Positions 17,375-38,523 of a stretch of DNA of 40,866 nt are shown piece after piece. Source of the DNA: Cytophagales bacterium (GTDB lineage: Bacteria; Bacteroidota; Bacteroidia; Cytophagales; Cyclobacteriaceae); assembly GCA_020063545.1 (NCBI GenBank), contig JAGUUF010000274.1, positions 1 through 40,866 of the forward strand, in the 5' to 3' direction. Position 1 is the first letter of the stretch. Every line of letters begins with the position of its first letter. The notes below the pieces were generated by a model. The model had not been told where the DNA came from and made no database searches. It worked only from the letters and a program-made list of their open reading frames with translations. The position numbers and the translations under genes are program-made.

Positions 17375-17402
17375 AAACCCCGGCCGGTGCCGGCCAGGGT
17401 TT
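17375..17402 (-). terminator. Strong Rho-independent terminator
   Basis: AAACCC-c-GGCCG-gtgc-CGGCC-a-GGGTTT, followed on the minus strand by TTTTTTATTTTTT. Confidence 0.88.
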
Positions 17403-17859: not shown

Positions 17860-18759
17860 TTAGCTAATAATCTTATTTCGGATGGTTCCTGTTATTGTTC
17901 GGATGTTGGTAATATCATCGGGTGTAATGTCGATGGTGGTGGTACTGTTATCTTTTATAACCATTACTCCGTTCACCACTTCGAAGGTTGATTCTTTGTA
18001 GGTGTAGGTGATGTTCACCTTATCAAATACTTTTTTCAATTCCTCCATATCGGTAAGTAATGCAGCCATGTTCTGATCAACATCTTTATAGAAACTCAGC
18101 AACAACAGAATATTTTCGAGAATTACTTTCTGCTCTCCGATTTTCTCCTGCAATTCCTTGTTGTTCGGGTCCATAGCCGCCACGTTACAGGTAATGTGCA
18201 TGGCTTCAAGCCAGCCGCCCGTAAGCAGCAGCACGCTCAGGTTTGCCCGGCCCTGGGTTTGCAGGTAATGGTTAATGTTGTTGAAATTCTGGGTAGTTAT
18301 TAACAAAAGTGAGTCCAGATTTTTGCTGTTTGTGGCCAAACGACCAATGGTTTCAATGTCGAAAAACTGGCCAATATTCAGTCCATCGGCAAGGCTTTTA
18401 ATGGCCGACATGTATTTTACACCGTCCTGGTTTTGCTCGTAGATGTTGGTATATCCCAAATCGGTACCGTAAATTCCAAGATTCAGAGCCTTTTTGTAGT
18501 TGCTATTATACTTAGGCAGGTTATCAGCCGAGTTCAGGTAGTTGAGGTTGTACTTTTTCCCTGATTCCTTAAGGAGAACGGAAATTTCCAGCGGACTGGG
18601 TATTTGCTGAAGGATGTCTCCGATAACCGCTTCCGAAATAGAAGGGCCGGTTATTTTGGTTGAATCGAGGCTTTCCATGAAGGCTTGCTCATCAGACTTT
18701 TTGCCGGAGCCGCAGGCCGTGAGGATGGCTACGATTAGGGTGTACTTGAGTAGTTTCAT
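17860..18759 (-). CDS. Lipoprotein of unknown function
   Basis: MKLLKYTLIVAILTACGSGKK contains lipobox LTAC; 299 aa helix-rich. Confidence 0.75.
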   Translation of the reverse strand: MKLLKYTLIVAILTACGSGKKSDEQAFMESLDSTKITGPSISEAVIGDILQQIPSPLEISVLLKESGKKYNLNYLNSADNLPKYNSNYKKALNLGIYGTDLGYTNIYEQNQDGVKYMSAIKSLADGLNIGQFFDIETIGRLATNSKNLDSLLLITTQNFNNINHYLQTQGRANLSVLLLTGGWLEAMHITCNVAAMDPNNKELQEKIGEQKVILENILLLLSFYKDVDQNMAALLTDMEELKKVFDKVNITYTYKESTFEVVNGVMVIKDNSTTTIDITPDDITNIRTITGTIRNKIIS

Positions 18760-18825: not shown

Positions 18826-21800
18826 CTATTTTTTCTTCGGCAGGTTTACCTTGCCGAACATATCCACAAACTTCCTTAGTAATTCAAAATATAAGGTTAC
18901 ATAAAAGATCAGCGCCATGAACCACACAACAAACAGGTTAAAGGCAAAGGTGCTGAACTCAACTCCAAGGAAATATTTTTTTGGTGCAAAGAAGTGTGTA
19001 CGGTAATTCAATAGCCCTGCCTGCTTCGGATCAAGGAATATCGTGTTTATTTCCTGGATAAGCTGGCCGTTGTATTCCAGGATTCTGTTTTTTGTTGAAA
19101 CGTTTTTTACCAGGTCGGCCAGGCTTTCGTTGTAGTACCGGTTTTTATAGTCGTTAAGGTTGTACGTACTGCCGGGTTCATTTTCTTTTGTGAAAATGAT
19201 TTGCTCGCGGTAAGCAACAGCCTTGTTGTAAGCCTCCTGGTAAAACCTGCGGTAAGCCAGCAGAAATTCTTCCAGGGTTTTACTGAACGAAGGCGTAAAC
19301 ATTTCGGGCGACCAGGGCTTGCTGAGATCAACCTGCTCAAGGCCGCGTTTAAAATAGTCATCCTTCAGGGTATTGCGGATGATTTCCAGATCGTTTCGAA
19401 TTTGTTTTCGTACCGAATCATCGGCAGACTGAATATTGTCTGCGATGAATTTGCGTTTTTTCTCCAGTTCATCGGCAAGGAATGAAGCCCTGAAGTCGGC
19501 CTGGGATTCAATTTTTTCGTAACTGTAATACGGTTTTTCGTACGAGTTGTTGATGAAGTTGTAAACCGCAAGCGCCTCATAGGCCCAGCGCGAAGCCATA
19601 AAATCGGCCACTAAGGGTACTTTGCCCTTGGTGCTGATGATGTTGTTGAGTTTATCAAACCGGAACAACAATCCGCTCAGAATCATTTGCGGAATAAGCA
19701 GCAAGGGTATCATAACGTATACCGTAACTGCCGAATTGAAAGCTGAGGAGATATTCAAGCCAAGTACATTGGCCATACACGAAACCGAAAACAGGACTAC
19801 CCAAAAGGGGAGAATCATCCGCCACTCTACTTCCAGAATAAGGTGGCCAATCAGCACAAAGGTTAGGGTTTGAATGGCCGAAAGCGTAAAGAGTATGGTG
19901 ATTTTTGACACCAGGTAACTGTTCCAACTCAGGTTGAGGAATGATTCGCGTTTCAGGATTTTCCGGTCGCGTATGATTTCTTCGGCACTCACCGTTAACC
20001 CCATAAACAGGGCCACCACAATACTCATTAATATAAAGGCCGGGAAGTTGTCGTTAAAGCGGAAAAGATATTCTTTACCGCCCGGTGCACTTTTGTATTT
20101 AATGATGAAGGCCAGGATCAGCGCCAAGAGGGGTGCCTCCAGCATGTTGATGAGCAGGTATTGCTTGTTGCTTAGTTTGGAGAGGGTATCGCGGGTAATG
20201 AAGATAAGCGCCTGCCTTATTTTGTTTGGAAGGTTAAGCGAGTGCGGGGGTTCCTCCTTTACATCTTCCACTTTACTCAGCCTGAACCGTTCCTTGTACC
20301 ACTCGTGCCATTGAACAGGCGTAATTTTTCGTTTGTTGGTGGGCTGGCCGTATTCATCCACCACTTTGGCTTCGATGATGTTGAAAATCTGTTCGGGGTT
20401 AACATTACCGCAGGTTTCGCACTGGCCGCGGTTACTGTCAACCTGAAGCGTTGATTTTTTGAAGTAGGTAACCGCTTCAACAGGTGGCCCGTAGTATGCG
20501 GGATAGCCGCCCGTATCCATAATAATCATCTTGTCGAACATTTTATAGATGTCCGATGAGGGTTGGTGGATGACTACGAAAATGAGTTTGCCTTTTAAGG
20601 AGAGTTCTTTCAGAAGGTCAATTACATTTTCTGAGTCGCGCGAAGAAAGGCCTGATGTCGGTTCATCGAGGAAGAGAATGGCCGGCTCGCGAATCAGTTC
20701 CAGCGCAATATTAAGGCGCTTGCGCTGGCCACCGCTGATGGTTTTTTCGAGTGGGTTGCCGACTTTCAAATCCTTACGCTGGTCAAGCCCCAGGTTTTCG
20801 AGTACCTCCATTACACGTTTGTGAATTTCTTCTTCCGTGAAATGGGCAAAGCAAAGTTTGGCGTTATAGTACAGGTTTTGGTAAACCGTTAGTTCTTCAA
20901 TCAGAAGGTCATCCTGCGAAACGTAACCGATTACCCCGTGAATTTTTTCTTTCTCTTCAAAAATATCGAACCCGTTGATGAGAATTTTACCAACGGAAGG
21001 TTTAGCCAGTCCGGCCATTACGTTAAGCAATGTGGTTTTTCCGGCACCACTTGCGCCCATAATGCCAATCAGGCGGCCCGGGCCTTCCGAAACCTTTACA
21101 TCGCGCAAGCCAACCGTACCGTTAGGAAAGCGGAACTCATCAATAACGGCATTGAATGATAGTTTGGTTGTTTTAATTTCTTCATTAAAGTCAGCAATAA
21201 TGTCGCTGTAGTACAGCGCATCACCGGCCTGTGTTTTTATGGTGCTGCCGTGCGAAAACAGGTAAACCCGGTTGGGCTGCATTATGAAGCCGTTCATCAG
21301 GGTTGACTCCTCGCCCGCGTATTTTACAAAGTACATGTCAACACTGCGCACGCGCATGCACACCAGGTCACCGGTAAGGTGAATGTGTACGTGTTTATGG
21401 AGTTTTTCCGGTGATGCCTTTTCCTCGCTGTTGCCAATCAGAATGTCAGGGTAGTTCAACGAACGGGGTTCCGTTGCGGTAATAAAATCCTCAATCAGCC
21501 GGTATTCATCGGGTTCGATATTGAATACGGTGGAAACGGTATTGATAATTTCCATCCGCTGTGCCGAAAAATTCTTGTCGGTTGCAACCAGTTCGAGCAG
21601 TTTAATCAGTACAACAACCTTTTGCTTTTGGGTAAGTGTTTTATTGATTTTTTTGCAGATACCCAGAACGCGTACCGATTCTTTAACACTGGTAAGTTTG
21701 GCTCCGCCTTCGGTAGCTTTACCATACCCGGATTGTTCATCGTACTGTGCCAGGTATTCTTTGAGTGTGTCCTGGTCCAGTTCGGTTTGAAAAAAAGTAA

Positions 21801-21894
21801 TGACATACTGGCGCTCATTGGCGCTCACTCCGCCATCCTGTTTGGTGATGATGGCAAAAAGCTGGGTTAGCGCTTTGAGAATTTCTTCACTCAT
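18826..21894 (-). CDS. ABCG-type ABC transporter (ATPase-permease fusion) with N-terminal TerB-like domain and enlarged soluble loop
   Basis: Walker A GASGAGKTTLLN, signature ISGGQRKRLNIAL, Walker B ILFLDEPTSGL; TerB-like N-terminus (LFAIITKQDGGVSANERQYV...); TM bundle with a long soluble insert before the last TM. Confidence 0.9.
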   Translation of the reverse strand: MSEEILKALTQLFAIITKQDGGVSANERQYVITFFQTELDQDTLKEYLAQYDEQSGYGKATEGGAKLTSVKESVRVLGICKKINKTLTQKQKVVVLIKLLELVATDKNFSAQRMEIINTVSTVFNIEPDEYRLIEDFITATEPRSLNYPDILIGNSEEKASPEKLHKHVHIHLTGDLVCMRVRSVDMYFVKYAGEESTLMNGFIMQPNRVYLFSHGSTIKTQAGDALYYSDIIADFNEEIKTTKLSFNAVIDEFRFPNGTVGLRDVKVSEGPGRLIGIMGASGAGKTTLLNVMAGLAKPSVGKILINGFDIFEEKEKIHGVIGYVSQDDLLIEELTVYQNLYYNAKLCFAHFTEEEIHKRVMEVLENLGLDQRKDLKVGNPLEKTISGGQRKRLNIALELIREPAILFLDEPTSGLSSRDSENVIDLLKELSLKGKLIFVVIHQPSSDIYKMFDKMIIMDTGGYPAYYGPPVEAVTYFKKSTLQVDSNRGQCETCGNVNPEQIFNIIEAKVVDEYGQPTNKRKITPVQWHEWYKERFRLSKVEDVKEEPPHSLNLPNKIRQALIFITRDTLSKLSNKQYLLINMLEAPLLALILAFIIKYKSAPGGKEYLFRFNDNFPAFILMSIVVALFMGLTVSAEEIIRDRKILKRESFLNLSWNSYLVSKITILFTLSAIQTLTFVLIGHLILEVEWRMILPFWVVLFSVSCMANVLGLNISSAFNSAVTVYVMIPLLLIPQMILSGLLFRFDKLNNIISTKGKVPLVADFMASRWAYEALAVYNFINNSYEKPYYSYEKIESQADFRASFLADELEKKRKFIADNIQSADDSVRKQIRNDLEIIRNTLKDDYFKRGLEQVDLSKPWSPEMFTPSFSKTLEEFLLAYRRFYQEAYNKAVAYREQIIFTKENEPGSTYNLNDYKNRYYNESLADLVKNVSTKNRILEYNGQLIQEINTIFLDPKQAGLLNYRTHFFAPKKYFLGVEFSTFAFNLFVVWFMALIFYVTLYFELLRKFVDMFGKVNLPKKK

Positions 21895-21929
21895 TCATTA
21901 TCGGGTTGGTAGCTGGTAGCGGCCCCGGG

Positions 21930-22292
21930 TTAATAGGTTTTGAACTCAAACGGTATTTCAACCAGTTCAGAAAATTCCTGCCCGGCTTCCTCCATATCTT
22001 CATCGTCTTCGTGGTAGTACCATAATATTTTCATGCCTTTAATGTCTTCCAGGGCAGAGAGTACATCCAGGATGAGTTTGGAAGATGCTGTGTTGAAATA
22101 CTCCAGTTTGAAAACAAAATCGGTTGTCGGGTTAGGCTCCGCACCGTACTTTCCAATCCACTCCAGTACCGGACGATAGAATTCGGCCGAGTCTTCAGGC
22201 AGGGAGCGGCCTGATATTTCAAAGATTCCGTTCTTTTTATCGAGGATGATTTTCGGGGTGTCTTCGGTTCCTTCAAGATTTAATATTTCCAT
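21930..22292 (-). CDS. siaC: SiaC family regulatory phosphoprotein (DUF1987)
   Basis: GTEDTPKIILDKKNGIFEISGRSLPEDSAEFYRPVLEWI...EYFNTASSKLILDVL; DUF1987 hallmark. Confidence 0.88.
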   Translation of the reverse strand: MEILNLEGTEDTPKIILDKKNGIFEISGRSLPEDSAEFYRPVLEWIGKYGAEPNPTTDFVFKLEYFNTASSKLILDVLSALEDIKGMKILWYYHEDDEDMEEAGQEFSELVEIPFEFKTY

Positions 22293-22318
22293 GGTGATAA
22301 GGTTAAAACGTTCAACAA

Positions 22319-22873
22319 TTAATTTTCGCCAGCCTCGCGCGGCACATTTACTTTGAGGCAGAAAAAGCAGTATTCGGCATTCATTTCAGGAAATGAAAAC
22401 TCAAGTTTTGCACCCGACTTACGGGCCATATCAACGAAGCCTAGCCCGGCACCGCCTTTTTCGGATATGGTGGTGTTTTTGATTATCTCTTTGTACAGGT
22501 CTTTGAGGCCTTCCTTGTCCAGGCTGTTGATTTTATCGAGGGCTGCTTTCAGCTTATCCACATTTACCTTGCGGATGGGATTACCGCTCATGATGGAATA
22601 GCGGTTAGTTTCTTTGCCGATAAGGAAGATAGCCGCATGGCTTCGGGTTTGGCCGTCAACCAGTTCATCGCTGTGTTTTACAATGTTCTGTAATGACTCA
22701 ACCATTACGTTGAATACCTTTCGTTTTATGCTTGATTCTTCTCCGGAGGAATCAAGGTTGCGCTCGGCCATGGCCAGTATGGATTTGGTGGTTTCCTGGG
22801 TGAAATCGCCCTGGTACACCAGAATCAGTTTCTGCGACATCATGGTGCGGTGCAGATCGTAGATGAAATTCAT
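22319..22873 (-). CDS. siaB: SiaB family GHKL-like protein kinase (DUF6272)
   Basis: FNVMVESLQNIVKHSDE (N-box-like) and EKGGAGLGFVDMARKSG; directly upstream of siaC. Confidence 0.85.
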   Translation of the reverse strand: MNFIYDLHRTMMSQKLILVYQGDFTQETTKSILAMAERNLDSSGEESSIKRKVFNVMVESLQNIVKHSDELVDGQTRSHAAIFLIGKETNRYSIMSGNPIRKVNVDKLKAALDKINSLDKEGLKDLYKEIIKNTTISEKGGAGLGFVDMARKSGAKLEFSFPEMNAEYCFFCLKVNVPREAGEN

Positions 22874-22962
22874 TTCAGTTGCTTATTTGAGGTTTCGAAT
22901 TTATTAAGTTTTGCATCAATATCGGCTATGTTATTTTCTCAAAATCAAGGTTTTTCATACAT

Positions 22963-25900
22963 CTAAAATTTTATCCCTATTAACAGTACGTCATCGGTTT
23001 GCCGGGTATCGCCCCGCCAGGCTTCCCACTCGGTGTCAAAAATAACGGAGGCCTCGCGCATGGAAAGGGTATGCACCCGTTCGATGATTTCGCGGGTTTT
23101 CTTAGGGCCAAACTTGCGCCCCTCCGGCCCGCCAAACTGGTCGGGGAAGCCATCGGAACTGAAATAAACCGAGTCGCCTTTATCCAGTTTAATTTTTGTG
23201 TTGGTAAAGTTGGTCTGGTTCTTAAAAATCCCTCCGCCTATCGGGAATTTGTTACCCTTCACTTCATCCATTACACCGCCTTTCATAATGTAGAGCGGGC
23301 GATGTGCCCCGGCATACTCCACTTCGCGGGTGTTCATGTTTATTTTACACAGGGCGATGTCCATTCCATCCTTGGTAGAGGCGTCTTCATCCTGCCGAAG
23401 GGTTTTGGTAACGCCTTCGTCAAGCAAATCCAGGATAACACCCGGGTCGGTAACCTTGCGGCTGCGCACAATATCGTTCAGCAGGAAGTACCCAATAAGG
23501 GAGAGCAGGGCCCCCGGCACACCATGCCCGGTACAATCAACCGCAGCAATATAAATATCGTCTTTCACCTGCATAAACCACGGAAAATCTCCGCTTACCA
23601 CATCGCGCGGCTTATATAATATAAAGGAGTCGGGCAGGGCGCGGTTTATTACCCGCGTGTTGGGTAAAATGGCCGTTTGTATGCGCTTGGCGTAATTAAT
23701 ACTTTCTGTGATCTTTTTATTCTTGGCCTGGATTTCGAGTTCGATCATTTTCCGCTCGGTAATATCGTGCGATACCACCAGCACGGATTCGACCTTATTG
23801 GTTTCGTCAAACTCCGGAATGGCGTTTACCTGCATTACCCGCTTGCCCATTTCGCTGGGGAAATCCATTTCGGTGGCAACGGTGTTTTCGGTAGCATTTA
23901 CCTGTTCAACAATGCGGAGCCACGTTTCCAACACCGATTTGTCGAGGTCAACTTCCTGCACGTTGCGGTTCAGGAACTGGCTGGGACTTTTGCCGGTATA
24001 GGATTCGATAACGGGGTTGATGTAGGAGATGGCTTCCTGCTCAAGTCGTGTAATCAGGTCGGGCGAGTTTTCGGAGAGTGCCTGCATTTTGCTCCGCATG
24101 CGTTGCTCCTGTTCGGCCCTTCTGCGTTCGGTGATGTCGCGCGAGTTGAGGATATACCCGTGAATAGCCGGGTTGGACATGCAGTTGGTACCGGTGGCTT
24201 CAATCCAGATGTAATTGCCGTCTTTGGTCTTGTACTCAAATTGCACGGTTACTTGTTCATCGGGGCTCTCTTTCATTTTCCGGAACAGGCCGTCAAAAAT
24301 TTCGCGGTGCTCGGCATGCACGTTGTTCATGTCGCTGCGGCCAATCAGTTCTTTCTGGCCATAGCCGAGAATGGTTTCAACCGAAGGAGAAATGTAGCGG
24401 ATGGTTTCGTCCTCTTCGTAAATGGTAATCACTTCCGAAGCATTTTCAAGCAGCAGCTGCATGCGCTTCTGCGTGCGGTTCACTTCTTCAACCTGGTGTT
24501 CGAGCTCGCGGTTGGTACGTTCCAGTTCTTCCTGGGTGGCCTGCATCTCTTCGGCATTTTGCCTGAGTACTTCCTGCTTCTCTTTCAGTTCATTACTCAT
24601 CGCCTGCGATTCTTCCAGCAGCCTGCGGGTGCGTTCGTTAACACGGATGTTGAAAATGGTGCGAGCCAGGATGAGGCTGAGTTCTTCAACAAATTTTACC
24701 TGCGATGGATTGAACCGTTTGAGCCCGGCAAACTCCAGTACGCCATACACTTCTTCGTTGGTAATGAGCGGCACGATAAGAATGCATTTTGGTCGTTGTT
24801 CGCCAAGAATGCCCGAAGTGATGGTTAAGTAATCATCCGGGATTTCGGTGCGCAGTACGGTATCCTTTTCTATGGCCGCCTGGCCTACCAGTCCTTCGGC
24901 AAACCGGAAACGGGTTTGAAGGTATTTTTTGCGGCCGTAGGCATAGCTGGCACGCATTTCAATAACCGGTTCGCTGCCGGTTTCGTCATTCACGGCATAA
25001 AATGCTCCCTGGATGGCGCCAATCTTTTCGAGGATAAACCGGATTACATCATCGCCCAGCGTATCGAGCGAATCGTGCAGCCTGAGTATTTCGCTGATCT
25101 CGGCAACACCGCGCACAATCCAGTTGCGTTCGTTATCGCGTTTTTCATTTTCAATAAGGTTGTTGCGCATGGTAAGCAGCGAAGATCCGAGCAAGTCGTT
25201 TTCGCTTTCGGGAACGAACTGCGTATCAAATTTTCCTTCACCTATGCGCTGCGTGAATTCGGCTTTTCGCTTTAGCGAGCTTACCAGGTTGTTCACTTTT
25301 TCGGTCATCTGCCCGAATTCATCGCGGGCGGTAATGTCAATATTCTCCGGCAGCACGCCTTCGGAAACCATGCCCAGAATGTTGCGCATGGTGTTAAGGG
25401 GCCGCGTGAGCGATCGGGCAAACATCATGGAGAGCAGGGTGGTAAGCAACACAATGCAGATGCCGGCCAACACGTAAATCCTGATTAACCCTGTTGCATC
25501 GCCATCCGCTTCGGCACCATCCATTTTTGCGATTACTCCCCAGCCGGGTAACGCAAGGGCTTTGCCGGTGTAGTACACGGATGCTCCACGATAATCCGAG
25601 CCGGAAACCATGCCGGTGGTGCCGGTCAGTACACGGTTAATGCCCTGAACAAACGGATCGTCAGGATTGTAAATTTTTATTGCCGCGTTGGGCTCGAAAC
25701 GAAGCGGGCTGGCCAGTAAAATCTTTTTATTGGTATTGTCCTGTTTTACCAGGATGATCTCACCGGTCTTTCCGAAGCCCCGGGTTTCGGACAGGGTTTT
25801 AAAAAATTCGGCCAGGTTAATGCGTGCTATAAGAAACTGGTTGCCGCTGGACGTGGTAATGGGTGCAAAACCGAACAGGTAATAGGTGTTTTTATCCTTA

Positions 25901-26313
25901 AATACCGAACTGAAGTGAACGCCTTTTTGTGCGTTTGAAAAACTGGAACCATCGGGGTCGGTAAACGTTTTGCCGGGCTCATAATTTCCATCGGTTGAAT
26001 AGAGAACAGCACCAGCTTGTGAAATAACATAGAACTCTTCAAACCCAAACCGGCTGCCAGCTTCCAGCGAATCCAACGATTCCCAAACTCGCGATTGTTG
26101 AAGTGTTTTTAATTCACTTTCCTTCCCGGCAAAAAATATGTTTACAAGTTCGGCCCGACTATCGGCTATTGCCGAAAGGCTGTACATCCACTTGTCGCGG
26201 TTGGCTTTTTGGTTAAACTCAAATGTGAAAAAACCGATGGCGCTTACTGCCGCCACGGCAATGGCCATTACCAGGATGGTGATTTTTGTGCTAACCTTTA
26301 TTCCTTTCAACAT
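22963..26313 (-). CDS. SpoIIE/PP2C-type phosphatase with Cache-like sensor, HAMP, GAF and two PAS domains (SiaA-like)
   Basis: N-terminal TM plus extracytoplasmic region, second TM, HAMP (RSLTRPLNTMRNILGMVSEG), GAF, coiled coil, PAS (YISPSVETILGYGQKELIGRSDM), PAS, SpoIIE (KPRDVVSGDFPWF...AAVDCTGHGVPGALLSLIG). Confidence 0.93.
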   Translation of the reverse strand: MLKGIKVSTKITILVMAIAVAAVSAIGFFTFEFNQKANRDKWMYSLSAIADSRAELVNIFFAGKESELKTLQQSRVWESLDSLEAGSRFGFEEFYVISQAGAVLYSTDGNYEPGKTFTDPDGSSFSNAQKGVHFSSVFKDKNTYYLFGFAPITTSSGNQFLIARINLAEFFKTLSETRGFGKTGEIILVKQDNTNKKILLASPLRFEPNAAIKIYNPDDPFVQGINRVLTGTTGMVSGSDYRGASVYYTGKALALPGWGVIAKMDGAEADGDATGLIRIYVLAGICIVLLTTLLSMMFARSLTRPLNTMRNILGMVSEGVLPENIDITARDEFGQMTEKVNNLVSSLKRKAEFTQRIGEGKFDTQFVPESENDLLGSSLLTMRNNLIENEKRDNERNWIVRGVAEISEILRLHDSLDTLGDDVIRFILEKIGAIQGAFYAVNDETGSEPVIEMRASYAYGRKKYLQTRFRFAEGLVGQAAIEKDTVLRTEIPDDYLTITSGILGEQRPKCILIVPLITNEEVYGVLEFAGLKRFNPSQVKFVEELSLILARTIFNIRVNERTRRLLEESQAMSNELKEKQEVLRQNAEEMQATQEELERTNRELEHQVEEVNRTQKRMQLLLENASEVITIYEEDETIRYISPSVETILGYGQKELIGRSDMNNVHAEHREIFDGLFRKMKESPDEQVTVQFEYKTKDGNYIWIEATGTNCMSNPAIHGYILNSRDITERRRAEQEQRMRSKMQALSENSPDLITRLEQEAISYINPVIESYTGKSPSQFLNRNVQEVDLDKSVLETWLRIVEQVNATENTVATEMDFPSEMGKRVMQVNAIPEFDETNKVESVLVVSHDITERKMIELEIQAKNKKITESINYAKRIQTAILPNTRVINRALPDSFILYKPRDVVSGDFPWFMQVKDDIYIAAVDCTGHGVPGALLSLIGYFLLNDIVRSRKVTDPGVILDLLDEGVTKTLRQDEDASTKDGMDIALCKINMNTREVEYAGAHRPLYIMKGGVMDEVKGNKFPIGGGIFKNQTNFTNTKIKLDKGDSVYFSSDGFPDQFGGPEGRKFGPKKTREIIERVHTLSMREASVIFDTEWEAWRGDTRQTDDVLLIGIKF

Positions 26314-26337
26314 ACTTCTTTTACTTCGTCTCCTGTT

Positions 26338-27066
26338 TTAGTTAACCGCCAGTTTATCTGCCAGCAATACAGCAGCTTCCTCAACAAATTTCCGTTGGCT
26401 GGGTGTTACCGGGGTAAATGAAGCAAGTTCAATAACCCCTGTAACCGCATTGTCCTTCGTGGCTGCAACAATTAAAATATACCGGGGTGATGAACTGCCC
26501 AGGCCCGAAATAATTTTTACATAGCCTTCCGGTATTTCGTCAAGGTACAGTGTTTGGCCGGTAATAATTGTTTGGCCTATCAACCCTTCGCCAGCTTCAA
26601 ACTCCGTTGTGCTGCCTTCGGAAAGGGTTAATGCATAGCCTGCTTTCAGCACGGCAACTTTCTTTTCATTGCGGGTTTCTACATGGTAAAAGGCACCCTG
26701 GCCGGCTTCCAGTTGTTTGCAAATGGCCGACAGGCCGCTTTGCATAATATCCTCCGGTTTGCGGGCCGATTTCAGTGCAGCGTTCAGAGAATCAAATGAA
26801 ATGGTAGTTGTGGCTGAATCATTTCCGTTCTGATTTTTCCCGTTACCGATTATTTTCTTTTCGCGGTAAACCACCAATGCCTGGTTGTTGGTTAAGGCTG
26901 TAACCAATGCGGCAGCCCCAAACACGCTGCTGATGCCGAGCAGCAGGTAAAACTGGTTGGGAATGCCCTGCGCTTCCGACTGAAACAAGGTATAAAGTGC
27001 GAAGGCGATTCCGGCCATGAACAGGACCGCCAATAGTATGCTGATATTTCGCGCTGAGAATTTCAT
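26338..27066 (-). CDS. Membrane-anchored GAF domain protein
   Basis: Two N-terminal TMs followed by a GAF domain (GAFYHVETRNEKKVAVL...GLIGQTIITGQTLYLDEIPEGYVKIISGLG); no output domain. Confidence 0.8.
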   Translation of the reverse strand: MKFSARNISILLAVLFMAGIAFALYTLFQSEAQGIPNQFYLLLGISSVFGAAALVTALTNNQALVVYREKKIIGNGKNQNGNDSATTTISFDSLNAALKSARKPEDIMQSGLSAICKQLEAGQGAFYHVETRNEKKVAVLKAGYALTLSEGSTTEFEAGEGLIGQTIITGQTLYLDEIPEGYVKIISGLGSSSPRYILIVAATKDNAVTGVIELASFTPVTPSQRKFVEEAAVLLADKLAVN

Positions 27067-27659
27067 TACCTGTATTGCTTATCAAGTTCTTTAAAGAATT
27101 CAACAATCTGGTCAACTTTTAAAACATGGTCTATTTGCGTAAGGGCCATAGCCGATTTTGGCATGGTATCGATCATGCATTCGGCTGGTTCCTGCACAAT
27201 AGTATAGCCGCCCCGATCCTTAATGTGCTTCATGCCCATAGCCCCGTCTTTGTTAGCTCCCGAAAGCAGGATGCCAATAAGTTTATCTTTAAAAACATAC
27301 GCACAGGTACCCAGCGTGATATCGATGGCCGGCCTTGAGTTGTTTATCATCTCTTCGGTGGAAAGTGAAAAGTAGTTTCCGAGTTCAACCGAAAGGTGAT
27401 AGTTGGCCGGGGCCAGGTACACGCTGCCCCGCTTAATGTTTTCCTTGTCGTATGGTTCGGTTACCTGCACAACACTTTTTAATGACAATGCCTCGACAAA
27501 TCCATGCCGCACATGCTTAAGCCGGTGCAGGCACATAATGATGGGCAGCGGAAATCCTTTCGGCAACTGCGAGAGAATTTTAACCACTCCCTGGAAGCTG
27601 CCTGCCGACCCACCGATAACAACGGCTTTGTAGCTGTTATTTAGGTTGAACTTGTTCAT
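27066..27659 (-). CDS. cheB: Stand-alone CheB-type methylesterase (no receiver domain)
   Basis: VIGGSAGSFQGVVKIL, APANYHL, LLSGANKDGAMGMKHI; catalytic Ser/His/Asp motif context. Confidence 0.9.
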   Translation of the reverse strand: MNKFNLNNSYKAVVIGGSAGSFQGVVKILSQLPKGFPLPIIMCLHRLKHVRHGFVEALSLKSVVQVTEPYDKENIKRGSVYLAPANYHLSVELGNYFSLSTEEMINNSRPAIDITLGTCAYVFKDKLIGILLSGANKDGAMGMKHIKDRGGYTIVQEPAECMIDTMPKSAMALTQIDHVLKVDQIVEFFKELDKQYR

Positions 27660-27679
27660 GAGCCGTTCGCAACTTCCTG

Positions 27680-28501
27680 TTAGTCCTTTATTTTCTTGTA
27701 AATCTTTTCTTCATTATTCACCACAATAAAGCGGTTGGCATAGTCGCACCAGATGAGTGATTCTTTCGATCCGATGGCGAGGTAGCCGTATTTGAATAAA
27801 CTTTCGTGAAACTTCTTAAGTACTTCATTCTGCAGTGCCTGGTTAAAATAAATCATCACGTTCCGGCATAACACCAGGTCAAACTTGTTAAACACTTCGC
27901 CCATTACCAGGTCGTGCTTGCGGAACGTTACATTGTTCAGTAAATCTTTGTTAAAAACAGCCTGGCCGTTTTCCTCACGGTAATAATCCTTAAGCGAGCC
28001 GGCTCCCTGGAAGCGGATGTAGTTTTTCTCGTTAAGCTCCATGTTCTTTATGGAGTAGGTGCCGGATTTTGCACGCTCCAGGATGGTGGTGTCAAGGTCG
28101 GTGGCATAGATCTGAACGTCCTGGTGAATGCCCATTTCTTTGAGCAGAATGGCCATGGAAAGAACTTCTTCGCCCGATGAGCAGCCTGCATGCCAGATTT
28201 TAAATTGTTTGTGGTTAAGCAGGATGGCCGGGATGATTTCTTCGCGCATGATCCGCCAGAAGCTCGGGTCGCGGAACATTTCCGTTACGTTAACGGTAAG
28301 CTCATCAAGAAACTCGTGGATGAATTCCGGGGAATCGTTCAGTTTGCGGATCAGCGCATCCACGGTAAGGCGTTTCAAATCCATAATCCGCAACACCCTG
28401 CGCTTAAAGGATGACATGGCGTAATTGCGAAAGTCGTAGCCGTACTTTTGGTAAATCAGCTCCGAAATCCGCTTCAGGTCGGCAATGTCAATGTCCTGCA
28501 T
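27680..28501 (-). CDS. cheR: CheR-type protein-glutamate O-methyltransferase
   Basis: LTVNVTEMFRDPSFWRIMREEIIPAIL, IWHAGCSSGEEVLSMAILL, LVLCRNVMIYFNQ. Confidence 0.95.
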   Translation of the reverse strand: MQDIDIADLKRISELIYQKYGYDFRNYAMSSFKRRVLRIMDLKRLTVDALIRKLNDSPEFIHEFLDELTVNVTEMFRDPSFWRIMREEIIPAILLNHKQFKIWHAGCSSGEEVLSMAILLKEMGIHQDVQIYATDLDTTILERAKSGTYSIKNMELNEKNYIRFQGAGSLKDYYREENGQAVFNKDLLNNVTFRKHDLVMGEVFNKFDLVLCRNVMIYFNQALQNEVLKKFHESLFKYGYLAIGSKESLIWCDYANRFIVVNNEEKIYKKIKD

Positions 28502-28698: not shown

Positions 28699-30666
28699 TC
28701 AATGGAGTTTATTCCGAAGGGTTTCCTGTGTAATCTTCAGCGCTTCCAGGTTGACCCTGAACATTTTTTCCAGTTCGGTAATGGAATCATCGCTGGTTGC
28801 GGCAGGTGGCGCAGCGGCAAGTTGCTGCTCAAGGGTTTTTATCCGGTTTTCCATTGCCTGCTGTTCGCTTAAGTCGTGGGCGTAAATGGCGGCCCCGATA
28901 ATTTCTCCGCTGGGCGATAACAACGGCTTGTAATTAACCGAGTAGGGCCGGCCAAAATAATCCTTTTCAACGCTGAGGGTTTGTCCGCTGAATACCTTAT
29001 CGTAAATCGATTTGTGGTATTCGAACTCGTCTTCTTTAAATAAGCTCAACACATAATACCCTTTTTCGTACGGGATGCCTGACCGGATGAATTCATCGAA
29101 CAGCGGTGCGTTATTGCGCAGCACCACACGGTAATCGCGGCCAATGGCTACAAAGGCATCGGTGGTGGCATTCATCAGGTTGCTCAGGTAGGTTTCTTTT
29201 TGCTGGGCTTCTTTCATTACCCGCTGCATTTCTTCCTGGGTGGCTGTAAGTTCTTCCATGTTTTGGCGCATCTCTTCTTCCTGCGCGCGCATGGCTTCGG
29301 TAGTCATCCGGCTTTCGTCAAGTAATTTGCGGTTGTTTTGAGCCGCTTTAACCGAGGCCAGTGTGCTGGCAATGGTTTCGCCCAGTTTTTCAACGAATGC
29401 AATTTCATGCGGCTGGTATTCACGGAAGGAAGCCAGTTCAACCATTCCGTAAACCGTATCGTCAACTTTCAGCGGAACAATAAGCAGTGTTTTTGGGTTG
29501 GCATCGCCAAGGCCCGAAGTAATGCGCACGTAGTCTTCGGGTATTTCGTTCAGGTAAACGGTTTCTTTTTCAAGATAAGTCTGGCCCAGAAGCCCTTCGC
29601 CCGGTTTTACTTTTTGCTGCTGGTGCTTTTTGATGTTGAAGGCAAATAATGAGATGAGTTCAAGGTATGGATGTTGGGGGTCGTCTTCATTAAGCACATA
29701 TAGGCCTCCCTGGTTGGAACCCGTATACTGTACAAGTGCCGAAATGATTTTATCGCCAAGCTGGGTAAGGTTATTGGCTGATGAACGAAGGATTTCAACA
29801 AACCTGGCCAATCCTTCGTTGGCCCATTTGCGTTTTTGTTCCTCATCGTTCATGGCCAGCAGTTTTTGTTGCATGGCAATAAGTGAATCGGCCAGTTTGT
29901 TTTTTCCCGGCTGGTATTCGGGTTCCAGTTCCTTATAATCTTTCGAAAGGTTTCCTTCGCCAATTTCCTTTACAAAATCCGAGGCATCGCGCAGGTTTTC
30001 CACCACTTCATTTATTTGCCTGGCAACCGCGCCAATTTCATTGGTCCGCAATCCGTTGGTATGATTATGCTGTGCCGTATTCGATGCCAGGGCCAGCAGC
30101 GGCTTAACAATATTTTTTCTGACGGCTATGATCAACCAGATGATGAGCAACGCATCGGCAACCAGCGAAAGCCCCAATGCCCACGTTGCAGTTTTCTTCA
30201 GTTTGTTCTCTTCATAGTTGAAATCAATGATTAGTTTATCAAACCAATCGAGCAGTAAGCCAGCCTGCACACCAAGCCTGGTGGTATCGGGTGATGTCGT
30301 AATAATCGAAGTAAATACCGCCCAGTCGGCAAGCAGCCGCTCCAGCGTTATGCCGGGTAATGGCTGTACAGGCGGAAGAACAGTTTGTGTTCCTGAAATC
30401 CGGCCCCCATGTTTGAGCAAACCGAGTTCTCGTTCGACTTTAGTAATTCGTTCAAGCCGGGTGCCCTGGTCGTCAGTTGTATGGTGCAGGAAGATTTGAT
30501 GAACATGAAGTTGGAGTTTCCGGGCATGATCAAGTTGTTGCTGAACGCTTTCAACAGCCGTAAATTTGCTTTGGATCCACAGTAACTGGAGGGCAACAAT
30601 AACAAAGAGCAGCACACCGGCAAGTATGCTGGCTTGCGCTATGGATACGTTTTTAAGGCCCTTCAT
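28699..30666 (-). CDS. Sensor protein with HAMP, GAF and PAS domains, no recognisable output domain
   Basis: Two TMs flanking an extracytoplasmic helical region, HAMP-like segment, GAF (GEGLLGQTYLEKETVYLNEIPEDYVRITSGLG), Glu-rich coiled coil, PAS; ends in a coiled coil. Confidence 0.85.
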   Translation of the reverse strand: MKGLKNVSIAQASILAGVLLFVIVALQLLWIQSKFTAVESVQQQLDHARKLQLHVHQIFLHHTTDDQGTRLERITKVERELGLLKHGGRISGTQTVLPPVQPLPGITLERLLADWAVFTSIITTSPDTTRLGVQAGLLLDWFDKLIIDFNYEENKLKKTATWALGLSLVADALLIIWLIIAVRKNIVKPLLALASNTAQHNHTNGLRTNEIGAVARQINEVVENLRDASDFVKEIGEGNLSKDYKELEPEYQPGKNKLADSLIAMQQKLLAMNDEEQKRKWANEGLARFVEILRSSANNLTQLGDKIISALVQYTGSNQGGLYVLNEDDPQHPYLELISLFAFNIKKHQQQKVKPGEGLLGQTYLEKETVYLNEIPEDYVRITSGLGDANPKTLLIVPLKVDDTVYGMVELASFREYQPHEIAFVEKLGETIASTLASVKAAQNNRKLLDESRMTTEAMRAQEEEMRQNMEELTATQEEMQRVMKEAQQKETYLSNLMNATTDAFVAIGRDYRVVLRNNAPLFDEFIRSGIPYEKGYYVLSLFKEDEFEYHKSIYDKVFSGQTLSVEKDYFGRPYSVNYKPLLSPSGEIIGAAIYAHDLSEQQAMENRIKTLEQQLAAAPPAATSDDSITELEKMFRVNLEALKITQETLRNKLH

Positions 30667-33691: not shown

Positions 33692-34456
33692 TCACTGTGC
33701 TAGTTTCTTCCTGAAATCGGCATTGTAGGTAAGGCTTACCTGCAGGGTGTGGTTGCGCTCGGCTTTGAGGCCATCGGCTTTTACAACAAACTGCTGCATG
33801 TACCCAACCTGCACATTGCCTTTTGCTGAGAATTGATATCCCAACGCCCCGTACAACCGGTTTTGGTCAAGGTAGTTCCTGTCGAAGTTGGGACCGAACT
33901 GGATAAAGATTTCGTCATACACGCTGGCAAAGAGAGTCTTTGGGCCCATCTCCTTTTTTGTAAGCGGGTAGTTTACCAGGAACCGGTAGCGTATGCGGTT
34001 ACGGTATACCCAGCCCTCCTGGCCAAAAACATTACCCTCCAGCCACCGTTGTTCGGGTCGGAAGCGGTGGTTAAAATAAAATCTTCCCTGCCGCTGGGTT
34101 AGAATAAAATTTTGCCAGATGCGGTGTTCGGTAAATTTTTCCGGTACGGGTTGTTCACCGTAGGGCCAGGTAACAATGTGGCCGTAGCCAAGGGTAACCG
34201 TTACCGCATCGGTAATCCAGTAATCAACACCGATACGCAGCAGCGATTGCTGCCAACTGGTAATCCAGTCTGACCTGCGCCACTGGTATTCGGTATGCAA
34301 ACTCCACTTGTCAGTTAGTTTGTGGTTACCAAAATACATGTACCAGCCGTTGTATTGGTTAACGATTTGTTTTTGGGACAGCGCCTGGTGAGGCAATGAT
34401 AAAAGTGCGGTAGTTATCCCGGCCAGGATGATCTGCTTAATTGTGTAACGAACCAT
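33692..34456 (-). CDS. DUF2490 domain-containing outer-membrane protein
   Basis: Signal peptide; GWYMYFGNHKLTDKWSLHTEYQWRRSDW...RIGVDYWITDAVTVTLGYGH; DUF2490 style. ATG at 34456. Confidence 0.85.
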   Translation of the reverse strand: MVRYTIKQIILAGITTALLSLPHQALSQKQIVNQYNGWYMYFGNHKLTDKWSLHTEYQWRRSDWITSWQQSLLRIGVDYWITDAVTVTLGYGHIVTWPYGEQPVPEKFTEHRIWQNFILTQRQGRFYFNHRFRPEQRWLEGNVFGQEGWVYRNRIRYRFLVNYPLTKKEMGPKTLFASVYDEIFIQFGPNFDRNYLDQNRLYGALGYQFSAKGNVQVGYMQQFVVKADGLKAERNHTLQVSLTYNADFRKKLAQ

Positions 34457-36311
34457 ACTTAAGGAGAAAATGAGTTGTTTCGTACCAGGCAATACTCTCT
34501 TCAATAAATTCAGGATTATTTGAATAGCTGACTTTCTGATGTGGTTCCAGAATTACCAAGTCGTTGTCTTTCATATACCCAAGCAACTGGTACGTGCTGA
34601 GAAATACCCTGCGCTGTTCATGGGTGGTTTTGAAAATATCATACCCCAAAAATTTGCTGGTGTAGGAGAAGTTAAGCAATCCCAATAAGGTGGGTGCCAC
34701 GTCAATCTGACTCATGAGTAAATTTACGACTCCCGGCTCAATATGTTTAGGAGAGAAGATGATCATTGGGATTTTGTACTTATCCGGGGGGAGGTATGTT
34801 TTACCCGCGCTTGATGCACAATGGTCGGCAATAATTACAAACAGGGTGTTATCGTACCAGCTAAATGTAGAACATTTTTTGATAAACGCATTAATGGCAA
34901 AATCAGTATACTTTACTGCGCCACTTCTGCCGGTGTGAGAGGGTATATCGATGCGTCCATTGGGGTAGGTAAAGGGCCGGTGGTTGGATGTAGTCATGAT
35001 GTGCACAAAAAAAGGTTTATTCAACGTTGTTGTTTTAAGTATCTCCTTTTCAGCCAGCCAGAATAAATCCTCATCGGCAATTCCCCATATATTTTCAAAG
35101 TGAATCTGTTCTTTTGGAACGTTTAGCCTGTCAATTGTTTCGTAGTGGTTTTCAGAAAAGAAGTAATTCATGTTGTCAAAATATCCATAACCGCCATAGA
35201 TAAACTTGCTTTCATAACCATGCGCGTTAAAAACCGTTGCCAGGGTAAACATATTTTCGTTATGCGGCCTGCGTATAACGGATTGCCCCGGGGTTGGCGG
35301 AATGGCTAATGACAGGGCCTCCAGGCCACGAACGGTACGGGTACCCGTGGCATATAAGTTAGTAAAAAGCAAGCCATGCCTGCTCAGGGAGTCCAGGTGT
35401 GGCGTTATACCCATTGTGTTTCCAAAGGCCTGCATGAATGAGGCACTCAGGCTTTCCACTGATATCAGTACTACATTAAGCTTTTTCTCAGGCCCCGGGT
35501 TATTTATTTTCCGTTCAAGCGAAAAAGAATCAGTTGATGTGTAGGTTGCTTCCGGGGTCTTTAACATGGTTTTAACTTTGATAAAGGCCTTTTGTTTATC
35601 AATAGTTTTGTAAAACTTTGAATAGTCGAGCTCATTATTGCGGTAAGCTGCAAATAATTCGTAGAGGCCATTGCCGGCAAGTTCGTTGACGTACGCATTT
35701 TTGCTGAATTGCTTTTGTTCAGTATTAATTGTGAAGTAGGCAAGTAAAGGAGCCAGCATAAAACCCATTGCCCATTTAAGGCGGTTTGGCCAACGCATTT
35801 TGCTTACCGATGATTGCCGGATGGCAGGCCGCAGCAGGTACGTGAGTGAAAGCGCGCCAATAATTATGGCGGGTATGATTTGTTGCAAAGGATAGGACTC
35901 TTTTATGTTTCCTAAAACTTCGGTGGTGTACACCAGGTAATCAACCGCAATAAAATTGAAGCGGGTATTAAACTCTTCCCAAAAGAAACCTTCGGCCAGC
36001 GAAGTGAACAGGAGGAAGCTGATTTCCAAAAACATGCAAATCACGAGTGTTGAACGAAACCATTTTGCCTTCAGCAACCTGTTGCTAACTAACACCAGCA
36101 AAATGAAAATCGGGATTACAACGTATGTTGCCGTAACGAAATCATACAACAGTCCAATAAGGAGAGCCGCTGGAATATCTAACGATAATTCGATTTGCTG
36201 CCAGGTATAAAATAACAGGATTAACCGGGTGAATGCCGAGAACAGCAAAAAAACCATGACCATGAGGGCAATAAACCCAAACCGGTGATTCAGTATTGAA
36301 CGCACTTTCAT
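34437..36311 (-). CDS. LTA synthase family / sulfatase-fold membrane enzyme
   Basis: N-terminal TMs then alkaline-phosphatase-fold domain: NVVLISVESLSASFMQAFG, TSNHRPFTYP, FVIIADHCASS. ATG at 36311. Confidence 0.9.
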   Translation of the reverse strand: MKVRSILNHRFGFIALMVMVFLLFSAFTRLILLFYTWQQIELSLDIPAALLIGLLYDFVTATYVVIPIFILLVLVSNRLLKAKWFRSTLVICMFLEISFLLFTSLAEGFFWEEFNTRFNFIAVDYLVYTTEVLGNIKESYPLQQIIPAIIIGALSLTYLLRPAIRQSSVSKMRWPNRLKWAMGFMLAPLLAYFTINTEQKQFSKNAYVNELAGNGLYELFAAYRNNELDYSKFYKTIDKQKAFIKVKTMLKTPEATYTSTDSFSLERKINNPGPEKKLNVVLISVESLSASFMQAFGNTMGITPHLDSLSRHGLLFTNLYATGTRTVRGLEALSLAIPPTPGQSVIRRPHNENMFTLATVFNAHGYESKFIYGGYGYFDNMNYFFSENHYETIDRLNVPKEQIHFENIWGIADEDLFWLAEKEILKTTTLNKPFFVHIMTTSNHRPFTYPNGRIDIPSHTGRSGAVKYTDFAINAFIKKCSTFSWYDNTLFVIIADHCASSAGKTYLPPDKYKIPMIIFSPKHIEPGVVNLLMSQIDVAPTLLGLLNFSYTSKFLGYDIFKTTHEQRRVFLSTYQLLGYMKDNDLVILEPHQKVSYSNNPEFIEESIAWYETTHFLLKYGSLHN

Positions 36312-36318
36312 GTTTATT

Positions 36319-38523
36319 CTAAAGAAGAATTTTTTTGGTGTTAACAGCATGCTGAGCACTTGTTAGAAAGTGAGCACCAAAATTTTCGAGCAATTTAATT
36401 TCGTACGCATCCAGTATACTGCGTCTTTTATAGAATAGCAGCTTGTTACGGTGGCATTCAATGTGCATTTCTTCTGCGTTTTCCAGAAATTCAATTACTT
36501 CCTGTGAAAAGAACCTTCTGATTTCCGGTTCATCCTGCCCACGCAAATAGTATTTTTTGGAAAACTGTTGATGATCGGAAAAGTCAATGTCCTTACCGCG
36601 TGTGAGTTCCGAAAGTTTAGACCATAAACTCTCTGGTTCGAGAGCAAAATCAGGAATTGTTAAACCGGTATCGCTTATCAGCATAACAGTAAGCTGAGTA
36701 TTTTGTTCTGCTTGTCCGGCCCCCTCGGTAAGTGTAATATCCGAAATGGTAAGCCGACCCTCCTCAAGGTATTTTTCCAGTACGTTCTCCTCAAAACGGA
36801 TTCTTGTACCGATTTCAATCGGAAAATCCTTGTATTTCATTACACTTTTTACTTTTTGAGGATAAAAGCTGTAGTCATTTTCTTCACTGAATTTACGCAG
36901 GGCTACCTGACGCGGATCGAGTTTGATTTCAACGCGGGTTTGTTTATACGGATCAAATTTGCGCGAGGCAAGCGGGTGGTTGGAGAATGCCCTGAAATTA
37001 TCAAAACCAAGCGTTAACACCTGGCCGCCTGTATGTTGATACTCTTCCTGAAAGTGGTACAAGGCTTCCATAAACGTGTGGTCCACAATTTTTGATTCGC
37101 TAAAATTCATAATCACTTTCTTTCCGGGTTCAAAGGAGTGGAAAAGTTTTTTATACCCAATCAGGTTTGAGAATATAGCGGCATCAATCACTTTAACATG
37201 GTATTCGCCATTGGTTTGTGTTTTTTCATAACGCGCTTTGAACAGGCTTCGTACCGGTGCCCCGTTTATCAGGTGGAAGAAAAATTTCATAAGGATGCCC
37301 GCCCCGACACCCATCAGCAAATCGGTTGAAATGGTTACGATGATGGTGGTAACAAAAATGACGAGCTGTTCGGAGCCGATTTTATAGGTTTTAAAAAATT
37401 CATTTGGCGATGCCAGCCTGTAGCCAACGGCTATCAGCAGTGCGGCAAGGGCGGTGTTAGGTATCATTTCGATTACCGGAATGAACAACAGCATGGCCAC
37501 TAACAAAAAGAATCCATGGAAGAAGTTTGCCCAACGCGTACGGCCCCCGAAAGAAATATTGGCCGAACTGCGGGCAACTTCGGATATCATCGGTAGCCCT
37601 CCCAGCATACCTGAAATGGCATTTCCAATACCCACGGCTTTAAGGTCCTTATTGTAATCCGAAATGCGTTTCCAGGGATCCAGCCCGTCTATGGCTTTAA
37701 CCGTCAACAGCGTTTCGAGGCTGTTTACGAAAAGGAACATGATTACGTATTTCCAGAAAACAAACGTGCCAATCATAGAGAAATCGGCATTGAAGCCAAC
37801 CGACCCCCAGAAGTTGCCAATCTGTACCATGTCGAAAGCCGGTTCGGTATGTTTAAAATCCATGATCCACGCCAGTGGTACTGTTACCAGCAGCACCACC
37901 ATCGGGGCAGGAATCCGTTTGAAAACTTTTCCCTTAAGCAAAGGCATACCGAAAATGATAACGAGGCTGAGGATTCCCAGAAAGGTTACCCGAATGTCTT
38001 CGTGCATAATGGAATCGGGAATGCGGGCATAGAGTTCAAGTGGCTCCAGGCCTTTTAACGTGGCGGGGTCAATACCCAGCAACACATGTATTTGTTTGGA
38101 GAAAATAATTAAGCCAATGGCGGCCAGCATACCGTGCACAGCCGAATGGGGGAAGAAATCACTGAGCGAGCCGAACTTTAAAAAACCGAATACAATCTGA
38201 ATCAGGGCAGCCACAACAATAACCCCCAGGGCCAGGTGCCAGCCTTCCGGCCCACCGCCCATTTCGGTTACGGCCCCGGCACAAATGGTTATCAGGCCGG
38301 CTGCAGGCCCTTTAATGGTAAGGCGGCTTCCGGCAAAAAAACTAACAACCAGGCCGCCAATCATTGCCGTTAGTACGCCCATGGCAGCCGGAAATTCGCT
38401 TGCTTTGGCAATGCCCAGGCTTAGGGGCAGTGCCAGCAGAAATACTAAAAATCCGGAAAGTGCATCGGCTTTCCAGTTTTGTTTAAGGCCTTCGAGGCCG
38501 TCTTTAGGGAGTTGAGTGTTCAT
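36319..38523 (-). CDS. SulP family inorganic anion transporter with STAS domain and extra C-terminal region
   Basis: GLKQNWKADALSGFLVFLLALPLSLGIAKASEFPAAMGVLTAMIGG; PMISEVARSSANISFGGRTRWANFFHG; STAS-like VIMNFSESKIVDHTFMEAL. Confidence 0.93.
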   Translation of the reverse strand: MNTQLPKDGLEGLKQNWKADALSGFLVFLLALPLSLGIAKASEFPAAMGVLTAMIGGLVVSFFAGSRLTIKGPAAGLITICAGAVTEMGGGPEGWHLALGVIVVAALIQIVFGFLKFGSLSDFFPHSAVHGMLAAIGLIIFSKQIHVLLGIDPATLKGLEPLELYARIPDSIMHEDIRVTFLGILSLVIIFGMPLLKGKVFKRIPAPMVVLLVTVPLAWIMDFKHTEPAFDMVQIGNFWGSVGFNADFSMIGTFVFWKYVIMFLFVNSLETLLTVKAIDGLDPWKRISDYNKDLKAVGIGNAISGMLGGLPMISEVARSSANISFGGRTRWANFFHGFFLLVAMLLFIPVIEMIPNTALAALLIAVGYRLASPNEFFKTYKIGSEQLVIFVTTIIVTISTDLLMGVGAGILMKFFFHLINGAPVRSLFKARYEKTQTNGEYHVKVIDAAIFSNLIGYKKLFHSFEPGKKVIMNFSESKIVDHTFMEALYHFQEEYQHTGGQVLTLGFDNFRAFSNHPLASRKFDPYKQTRVEIKLDPRQVALRKFSEENDYSFYPQKVKSVMKYKDFPIEIGTRIRFEENVLEKYLEEGRLTISDITLTEGAGQAEQNTQLTVMLISDTGLTIPDFALEPESLWSKLSELTRGKDIDFSDHQQFSKKYYLRGQDEPEIRRFFSQEVIEFLENAEEMHIECHRNKLLFYKRRSILDAYEIKLLENFGAHFLTSAQHAVNTKKILL

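Follow-up and report, generated by a model that had tools for sequence, protein, structure and literature searches.

SiaC proteins, which make up the family DUF1987, are widespread; to our knowledge, the cyclase SiaD is the only client of SiaC that has been described, and the SiaABC-type switch is known only for biofilm control in Pseudomonas. A search of open-access papers found the name DUF1987 in only one of them. In Pseudomonas aeruginosa, SiaC acts on a cyclase; phosphorylation of its Thr68 prevents client binding, and the T68A and T68A/S69A proteins are still functional (PMC8457831). Here we describe a block of nine minus-strand genes from a Cytophagales bacterium (assembly GCA_020063545.1, contig JAGUUF010000274.1) that is a previously undescribed variant of the SiaABC partner switch. 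Taken as a whole, the block is best explained as a switch of this type controlling an ABCG exporter, a reading that we consider probable. Positions are counted in the 40,866-nucleotide (nt) stretch that was analysed, referred to below as the window.

The unit occupies window positions 28501-17422 in the order CheR-CheB-GAF-SiaA-SiaB-SiaC-TerB/FHA/ABCG-P299-P140. An earlier note on this DNA had described seven genes, from CheR to ABCG, with gaps of -1 to 89 nt. The seven open reading frames are present as described (spacing 35, 26, 89, 24, -1 and 20 nt), and Pfam and NCBIfam searches of the window's proteins confirmed their domains (CheR, CheB, GAF, HAMP/PAS/SpoIIE, SiaB, SiaC and TerB-ABCG), apart from a Cache domain in SiaA, which neither database detected. 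The limit of the unit has to be redrawn, as P299 and P140 follow ABCG ahead of a terminator-like hairpin (17402-17375). Besides these two genes, the note had omitted an FHA-like domain in the transporter and the likely role of CheR and CheB.

We searched for SiaC in 297 genomes of the phylum (18 positive) and 149 genomes of the family (100 positive), and read 86 neighbourhoods, 42 of which contain a TerB-ABCG gene. The nine genes have the same order and strand in 41 of these 42 loci, with median gaps of 0-95 nt, and the arrangement is therefore far beyond chance. In the sole exception (L070, from another family) SiaB-SiaC converge on ABCG and P299. Among the 80 best named loci in a scan of GTDB genomes for P299, 46 hold the full gene set, and some of the rest are truncated where their contigs stop; the P299 loci span Chryseolinea, Fulvivirga, Ohtaekwangia, Chryseosolibacter and unnamed Cyclobacteriaceae, with the full block in Chryseolinea serpens (L161) and Ohtaekwangia koreensis (L160). 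Close relatives of SiaC were not found in IMG/VR, which gives no sign of phage carriage.

Promoter motifs across the 41 loci do not divide SiaC from its neighbour. Ahead of CheR the -7 element is over-represented (13/41, 4.6 expected), and ahead of ABCG it is not (1/41, 4.4 expected); the full Bacteroidota-type motif stands before P299 in 17 loci against 0.7 expected, and 35 loci have a hairpin with a T-run after P140. This pattern suggests that SiaC and ABCG probably share one transcript, and that P299-P140 can probably be made alone as well. The gene order and the transcript pattern, both proposed as checks in the earlier note, thus came out in favour of its cluster. Between SiaC and ABCG, 10 of the 41 loci have a hairpin followed by a T-run, a possible attenuator.

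No GGDEF domain was found in the window's genome (2.98 Mb, 96.4% complete), which has a single SiaC, and the absence of a diguanylate cyclase that the earlier note had seen at the locus extends well beyond it. Within the family, any GGDEF match occurs in 6 of 149 genomes versus SiaC in 100 of 149, and only four genomes have both (G312, G341, G376 and G416). A SiaD-type output is therefore ruled out for nearly all SiaC systems in the family. Three family loci (L122, L123 and L133) hold two or three clustered SiaC genes without ABCG, and further SiaC clients therefore probably exist.

The earlier note had named the transporter as the obvious candidate for another client of SiaC, and natural loss and gene fusion both point the same way: SiaC is kept with ABCG after CheR through SiaB have been lost, and TerB-FHA-SiaC fusions exist. 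We regard a functional link between SiaC and the ABCG transporter as very likely. The loss is seen in a clade of 14 genomes (the SiaC-only clade) that retain SiaC-ABCG-P299-P140, with SiaC between a CDD gene and ABCG; the 14th, a metagenome-assembled genome (L219), has a frameshifted SiaC and is counted beside 13 others. Since the ABCG tree nests this clade inside the full-module loci, its state is a loss, not a primitive condition. SiaB is found nowhere in the genome in 10 of the 14, and three more lineages have lost SiaA from the locus and kept SiaB-SiaC.

SiaC in this clade is still under purifying selection, with a ratio of nonsynonymous to synonymous substitution rates of 0.115 versus 0.035 in intact loci. 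Conservation of the phosphosite and helix 2 drops from 0.96 to 0.63, the motif YFNTASSK is eroded, 5 of 13 sequences have Ile or Val in place of Thr68, and the C-terminal helix and tail are the best preserved part. Together with the activity of the T68A protein (PMC8457831), these observations argue that SiaC beside ABCG keeps a role independent of phosphorylation, as of a locked-on client-binding subunit. Because T68A works and phospho-Thr68 blocks client binding, the erosion of Thr68 would leave SiaC permanently active.

The fusions came from a wider survey. A search of 395 genomes of the class for P299 turned up relatives in 207, and we read 20 distant loci picked by P299 score, a choice that favours module-like loci; TerB-FHA-ABCG is present in 17, and 12 of these have SiaC nearby. 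Three of the 20 encode an additional protein of 367-377 amino acids (aa), situated between SiaC and ABCG, which ends in a SiaC domain recognised by Pfam and begins with 250 residues that align with the TerB-FHA region at the start of ABCG (prob 98.5, E=3.9e-15). The order CheR-CheB-x-PP2C-SiaB-SiaC-ABCG-P299 is found again at L283, L293, L294 and L297, which belong to other families of this class, and elsewhere P299-P140 are divergent (L284), SiaB/SiaC diverge from ABCG (L288) or SiaB-SiaC are convergent (L299-L301); SiaC-ABCG adjacency is found in at least four different arrangements. The SiaC of co-directional loci and of the window form one supported group in the tree (two other SiaC lie inside it). 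Those of convergent loci fall outside this group, which suggests that they may represent a second, separate SiaC-ABCG association.

Judged by its residues, the switch machinery is intact in the full modules, which have a SiaC with the threonine, a SiaB-family kinase with an ATP lid and a HAMP-PP2C protein. Thr68 of the window's SiaC aligns to the same column as T68 of P. aeruginosa SiaC (6kko/6k4f), and YFNTASSK is unchanged in 92 of the 93 intact modules. SiaB matches 6kko_A, with the catalytic Glu59, Asn63 and the GAGLG loop conserved, and the PP2C domain aligns to P. aeruginosa SiaA (6k4e, E=1.1e-38) with its metal-binding Asp motifs kept. The three proteins score below the NCBIfam equivalog cut-offs (SiaA 205 against 700 bits, SiaB 86 against 225, SiaC 83.8 against 150). 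The best reading is that SiaB would phosphorylate SiaC and SiaA would dephosphorylate it. SiaA itself consists of a weakly conserved extracytoplasmic part of ~240 residues with no assigned domain, then HAMP, GAF, a conserved coil, two PAS domains and SpoIIE/PP2C. Two distant loci encode a tandem SiaB, a single protein of 380 aa that contains DUF6272 twice (L293 5115-6257; L294 14248-15390), and in two others SiaB is present as two or three separate genes (L284 and L295).

The proposed client has an N-terminal ATPase (PF00005) followed by an ABC2-type membrane domain (PF01061), as in the ABCG family, and 410 of its 1022 columns are at least 95% identical across the 42 loci. A model of its N-terminal 265 residues (predicted local distance difference test score 87.7) revealed by Foldseek an FHA-like fold between TerB and the ABC ATPase. 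Of the canonical Arg/Ser/His phosphothreonine pocket of FHA domains, inspection of the alignment found the NG and GS parts conserved and S-x-x-H not evident. We considered a mechanism in which this domain reads phospho-SiaC and rejected it as the main one, given these residues and the retention of SiaC after the loss of Thr68. Relative to the ABC core, TerB is over-diverged in SiaC-less loci (residuals -0.08 to -0.15) and in paralogues (mostly -0.23 to -0.30), and shows no over-divergence in the SiaC-only clade (-0.017); the FHA-like domain is not over-diverged in SiaC-less loci or paralogues. These rates fit TerB as a putative docking site for SiaC. A second TerB-ABCG and P299 paralogue pair, lacking SiaC, is present in the window's genome (L245, G000:C91:3420-4274) and in relatives (L246, L252, L253, L255-L257).

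Neither P299 nor P140 matched a Pfam or NCBIfam family above cut-off. P299 is mostly helical, with no fold match in the PDB below E=0.2; P140, present in the 41 full loci, has the invariant cysteines C22, C31, C112 and C131. Their rates covary with each other (0.63) and with those of the ABCG membrane domain (0.33 for P299, 0.42 for P140). The two proteins suggest an envelope or surface component as cargo.

The window's genome has a single CheR, and no methyl-accepting chemotaxis proteins (MCPs; MCPsignal domain) were found in it or in either of the two same-genus genomes. MCPs are absent as well from 12 genomes among those of the 41 full loci. In the absence of an MCP, a chemotaxis role for CheR and CheB was rejected for the window's genome. 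The SiaA coil after GAF has a mean column conservation of 0.86, versus 0.78 for GAF and 0.80 for SpoIIE. In both this coil and the segment EEMRQNMEELTATQEEM of the 655-aa HAMP/GAF protein, Glu pairs precede small residues, a pattern that resembles MCP methylation sites. We tentatively suggest that CheR and CheB could form a methylation layer on the SiaA coil.

Coordinates of the features. Positions refer to the window, except for the fusions, which lie in other loci.
Feature	Position	Strand	Basis
655-aa HAMP/GAF/coil membrane protein carrying EEMRQNMEELTATQEEM, probable accessory sensor	28699..30666	-	Pfam GAF
CheR methyltransferase	27680..28501	-	PF01739 1.8e-45, PF03705
CheB methylesterase, catalytic domain only, without receiver domain	27066..27659	-	PF01339 2.7e-48
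Membrane-anchored GAF protein	26338..27066	-	PF13185 7.3e-09
SiaA-like sensor phosphatase	22963..26313	-	Pfam
SiaA coiled segment QEvLrQNAEEMqATQEEL, candidate methyl-accepting helix	24514..24633	-	column conservation
SiaB-family Ser/Thr kinase (DUF6272)	22319..22873	-	NF038262 180 bits, cut-off 85
SiaC (DUF1987), STAS-like switch protein	21930..22292	-	PF09345 133.6 bits, cut-off 24.5
Thr68 codon, predicted phosphosite within YFNTASSK	22089..22091	-	alignment to P. aeruginosa SiaC T68
TerB-FHA-ABCG half-transporter, 1022 aa, proposed SiaC client	18826..21894	-	PF05099, PF00005, PF01061
TerB domain of transporter, residues 1-135	21490..21894	-	PF05099 6e-07; high-confidence model
FHA-like domain, residues about 150-258	21121..21447	-	Foldseek matches to FHA domains, prob 1.00, best E 5e-3
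Bacteroidota-type promoter match TTTG-N-TAACTTTG before P299	18781..18811	-	motif match
P299, conserved 299-aa lipoprotein	17860..18759	-	lipobox Cys16 invariant
P140, small secreted Cys-containing protein, 140 aa	17422..17844	-	signal-peptide-like N-terminus
Intrinsic terminator-like hairpin closing the nine-gene unit	17375..17402	-	12-pair stem, 8 GC, T-run
TerB-FHA-SiaC fusions	L285 5025-6149; L286 13139-14272; L295 5859-6962		

The GAF protein is the fastest-evolving member of the block (mean identity 0.33 across the TerB-ABCG loci), and only some loci have a homologue of the 655-aa protein upstream of CheR. Farther away, the window encodes a SulP-type sulfate permease (PF00916, 36319-38550) adjoining a sulfatase (34437-36359) and a DUF2490 protein.

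We propose a SiaABC-type partner switch with an ABC exporter as its output instead of a diguanylate cyclase. SiaC would be the switch, phosphorylated on Thr68 by SiaB and relieved of the phosphate by the membrane sensor SiaA. Unphosphorylated SiaC would dock on the cytoplasmic TerB-FHA domain and set the activity of ABCG, most likely activating it, in a manner comparable to the support that the ABC ATPase MlaF receives from the STAS protein MlaB. P299 and the secreted P140 may be envelope partners of the transporter or parts that handle its cargo. Reversible methylation of the conserved QNxEExxATQEE coil by CheR and CheB would most likely adjust both SiaA and the upstream HAMP/GAF protein, an adaptation outside chemotaxis. 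We infer the binding of SiaC to ABCG, the sign of the control, the cargo and the methylation; direct docking on TerB-FHA under Thr68 control seems reasonably likely to us.

Several observations weigh against this proposal. The SiaC-only state reflects one loss event for the whole clade; 4 of its 14 genomes hold another SiaB, which could act in trans, and all 14 have other SpoIIE phosphatases. The over-divergence of TerB may be due in part to paralogy, and pairwise rates of SiaC and TerB show no covariation (r=-0.04). As phosphothreonine-binding residues are not evident in it, the FHA-like domain probably does not read phospho-SiaC. Finally, ABCG-P299-P140 occur without an adjacent SiaC in six loci (L238, L240-L244), and SiaC is therefore not essential to them.

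The lack of rate covariation would also be expected if SiaC drove a different cytoplasmic client, such as a SpoIIE protein, an anti-sigma-like kinase or another type of cyclase, with ABCG-P299-P140 merely co-transcribed for use under the same condition. P. aeruginosa SiaC does act on a cyclase (PMC8457831), and family genomes contain many other SiaC genes, and relatives other SpoIIE genes. We nevertheless hold this to be unlikely, as SiaC stays by ABCG under purifying selection after SiaA and SiaB are gone, and the association recurs in several gene orders and as TerB-FHA-SiaC fusions. Co-localisation and fusion are symmetric evidence of partnership, and would equally suit a reverse flow, in which the transporter with P299 and P140 is the sensor and SiaABC reports its occupancy to another output, like BceAB-type transporters signalling to histidine kinases. 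However, SiaA has membrane sensor domains of its own, and where the signalling parts have left the locus SiaC remains with ABCG and has little left to report to; such a direction appears highly improbable.

A further alternative gives SiaC a mainly structural or stabilising role as a subunit of ABCG, with phosphorylation minor or occasional. The persistence of SiaC without the kinase and with an eroded Thr68 agrees with this, as does the resemblance to MlaB, for which phosphorylation is unproven (PMC7367683). In the intact modules, however, the near-invariance of YFNTASSK and the conserved catalytic residues of SiaA and SiaB indicate that the switch is under selection there, and a mainly structural SiaC is in our view very unlikely. 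The switch-controlled exporter remains our preferred explanation, and it would add a second class of SiaC client, for which gene order, natural loss and fusion provide support across a Bacteroidota class.

Compared with SiaABCD of P. aeruginosa, the block has the same HAMP-PP2C, SiaB-type kinase, SiaC Thr68 column and order A-B-C followed by the client. The client gene is TerB-FHA-ABCG here and the GGDEF protein SiaD there; CheR, CheB, GAF, P299 and P140 are additional, and SiaA carries GAF and PAS domains. The logic of kinase, phosphatase and STAS-like switch is shared with HsbA/HptB and SpoIIAA/SpoIIAB/SpoIIE (PMC8457831), whereas those switches act on sigma factors, anti-sigma factors or cyclases and not on transporters. 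Rv1747-PknF of Mycobacterium tuberculosis also pairs an FHA-containing ABC exporter with a neighbouring Ser/Thr kinase (PMC3908365), but PknF is a eukaryotic-like kinase acting with genuine FHA domains, whereas here the expected target of a SiaB-type kinase is SiaC, and phosphopeptide-binding residues are not evident in the FHA-like domain. CheR and CheB belong to the same methyltransferase and methylesterase families as in chemotaxis adaptation; unlike there, no MCP is present, CheB has no receiver, and the probable substrate is the coil of a sensor phosphatase.

MlaFEDB of Escherichia coli likewise combines a STAS-fold protein with an ABC ATPase, and the Thr at the phospho position is conserved there too (PMC7367683). 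MlaB is without a known kinase or phosphatase, whereas SiaC has both beside it; here the ATPase and permease form one ABCG chain with TerB-FHA, and Pfam found no MCE (MlaD) or MlaE domain among the nine genes. More speculatively, the exporter could be under three layers of control, CheR/CheB setting the gain of the PP2C sensor, SiaA and SiaB setting SiaC, and SiaC gating ABCG through TerB-FHA, with one clade having collapsed to a permanently active SiaC subunit that would link partner switches to STAS subunits like MlaB. Whether STAS-type regulators of ABC transporters act by phosphorylation is a question posed for MlaB (PMC7367683), and the block described here offers a genetic system in which to address it.

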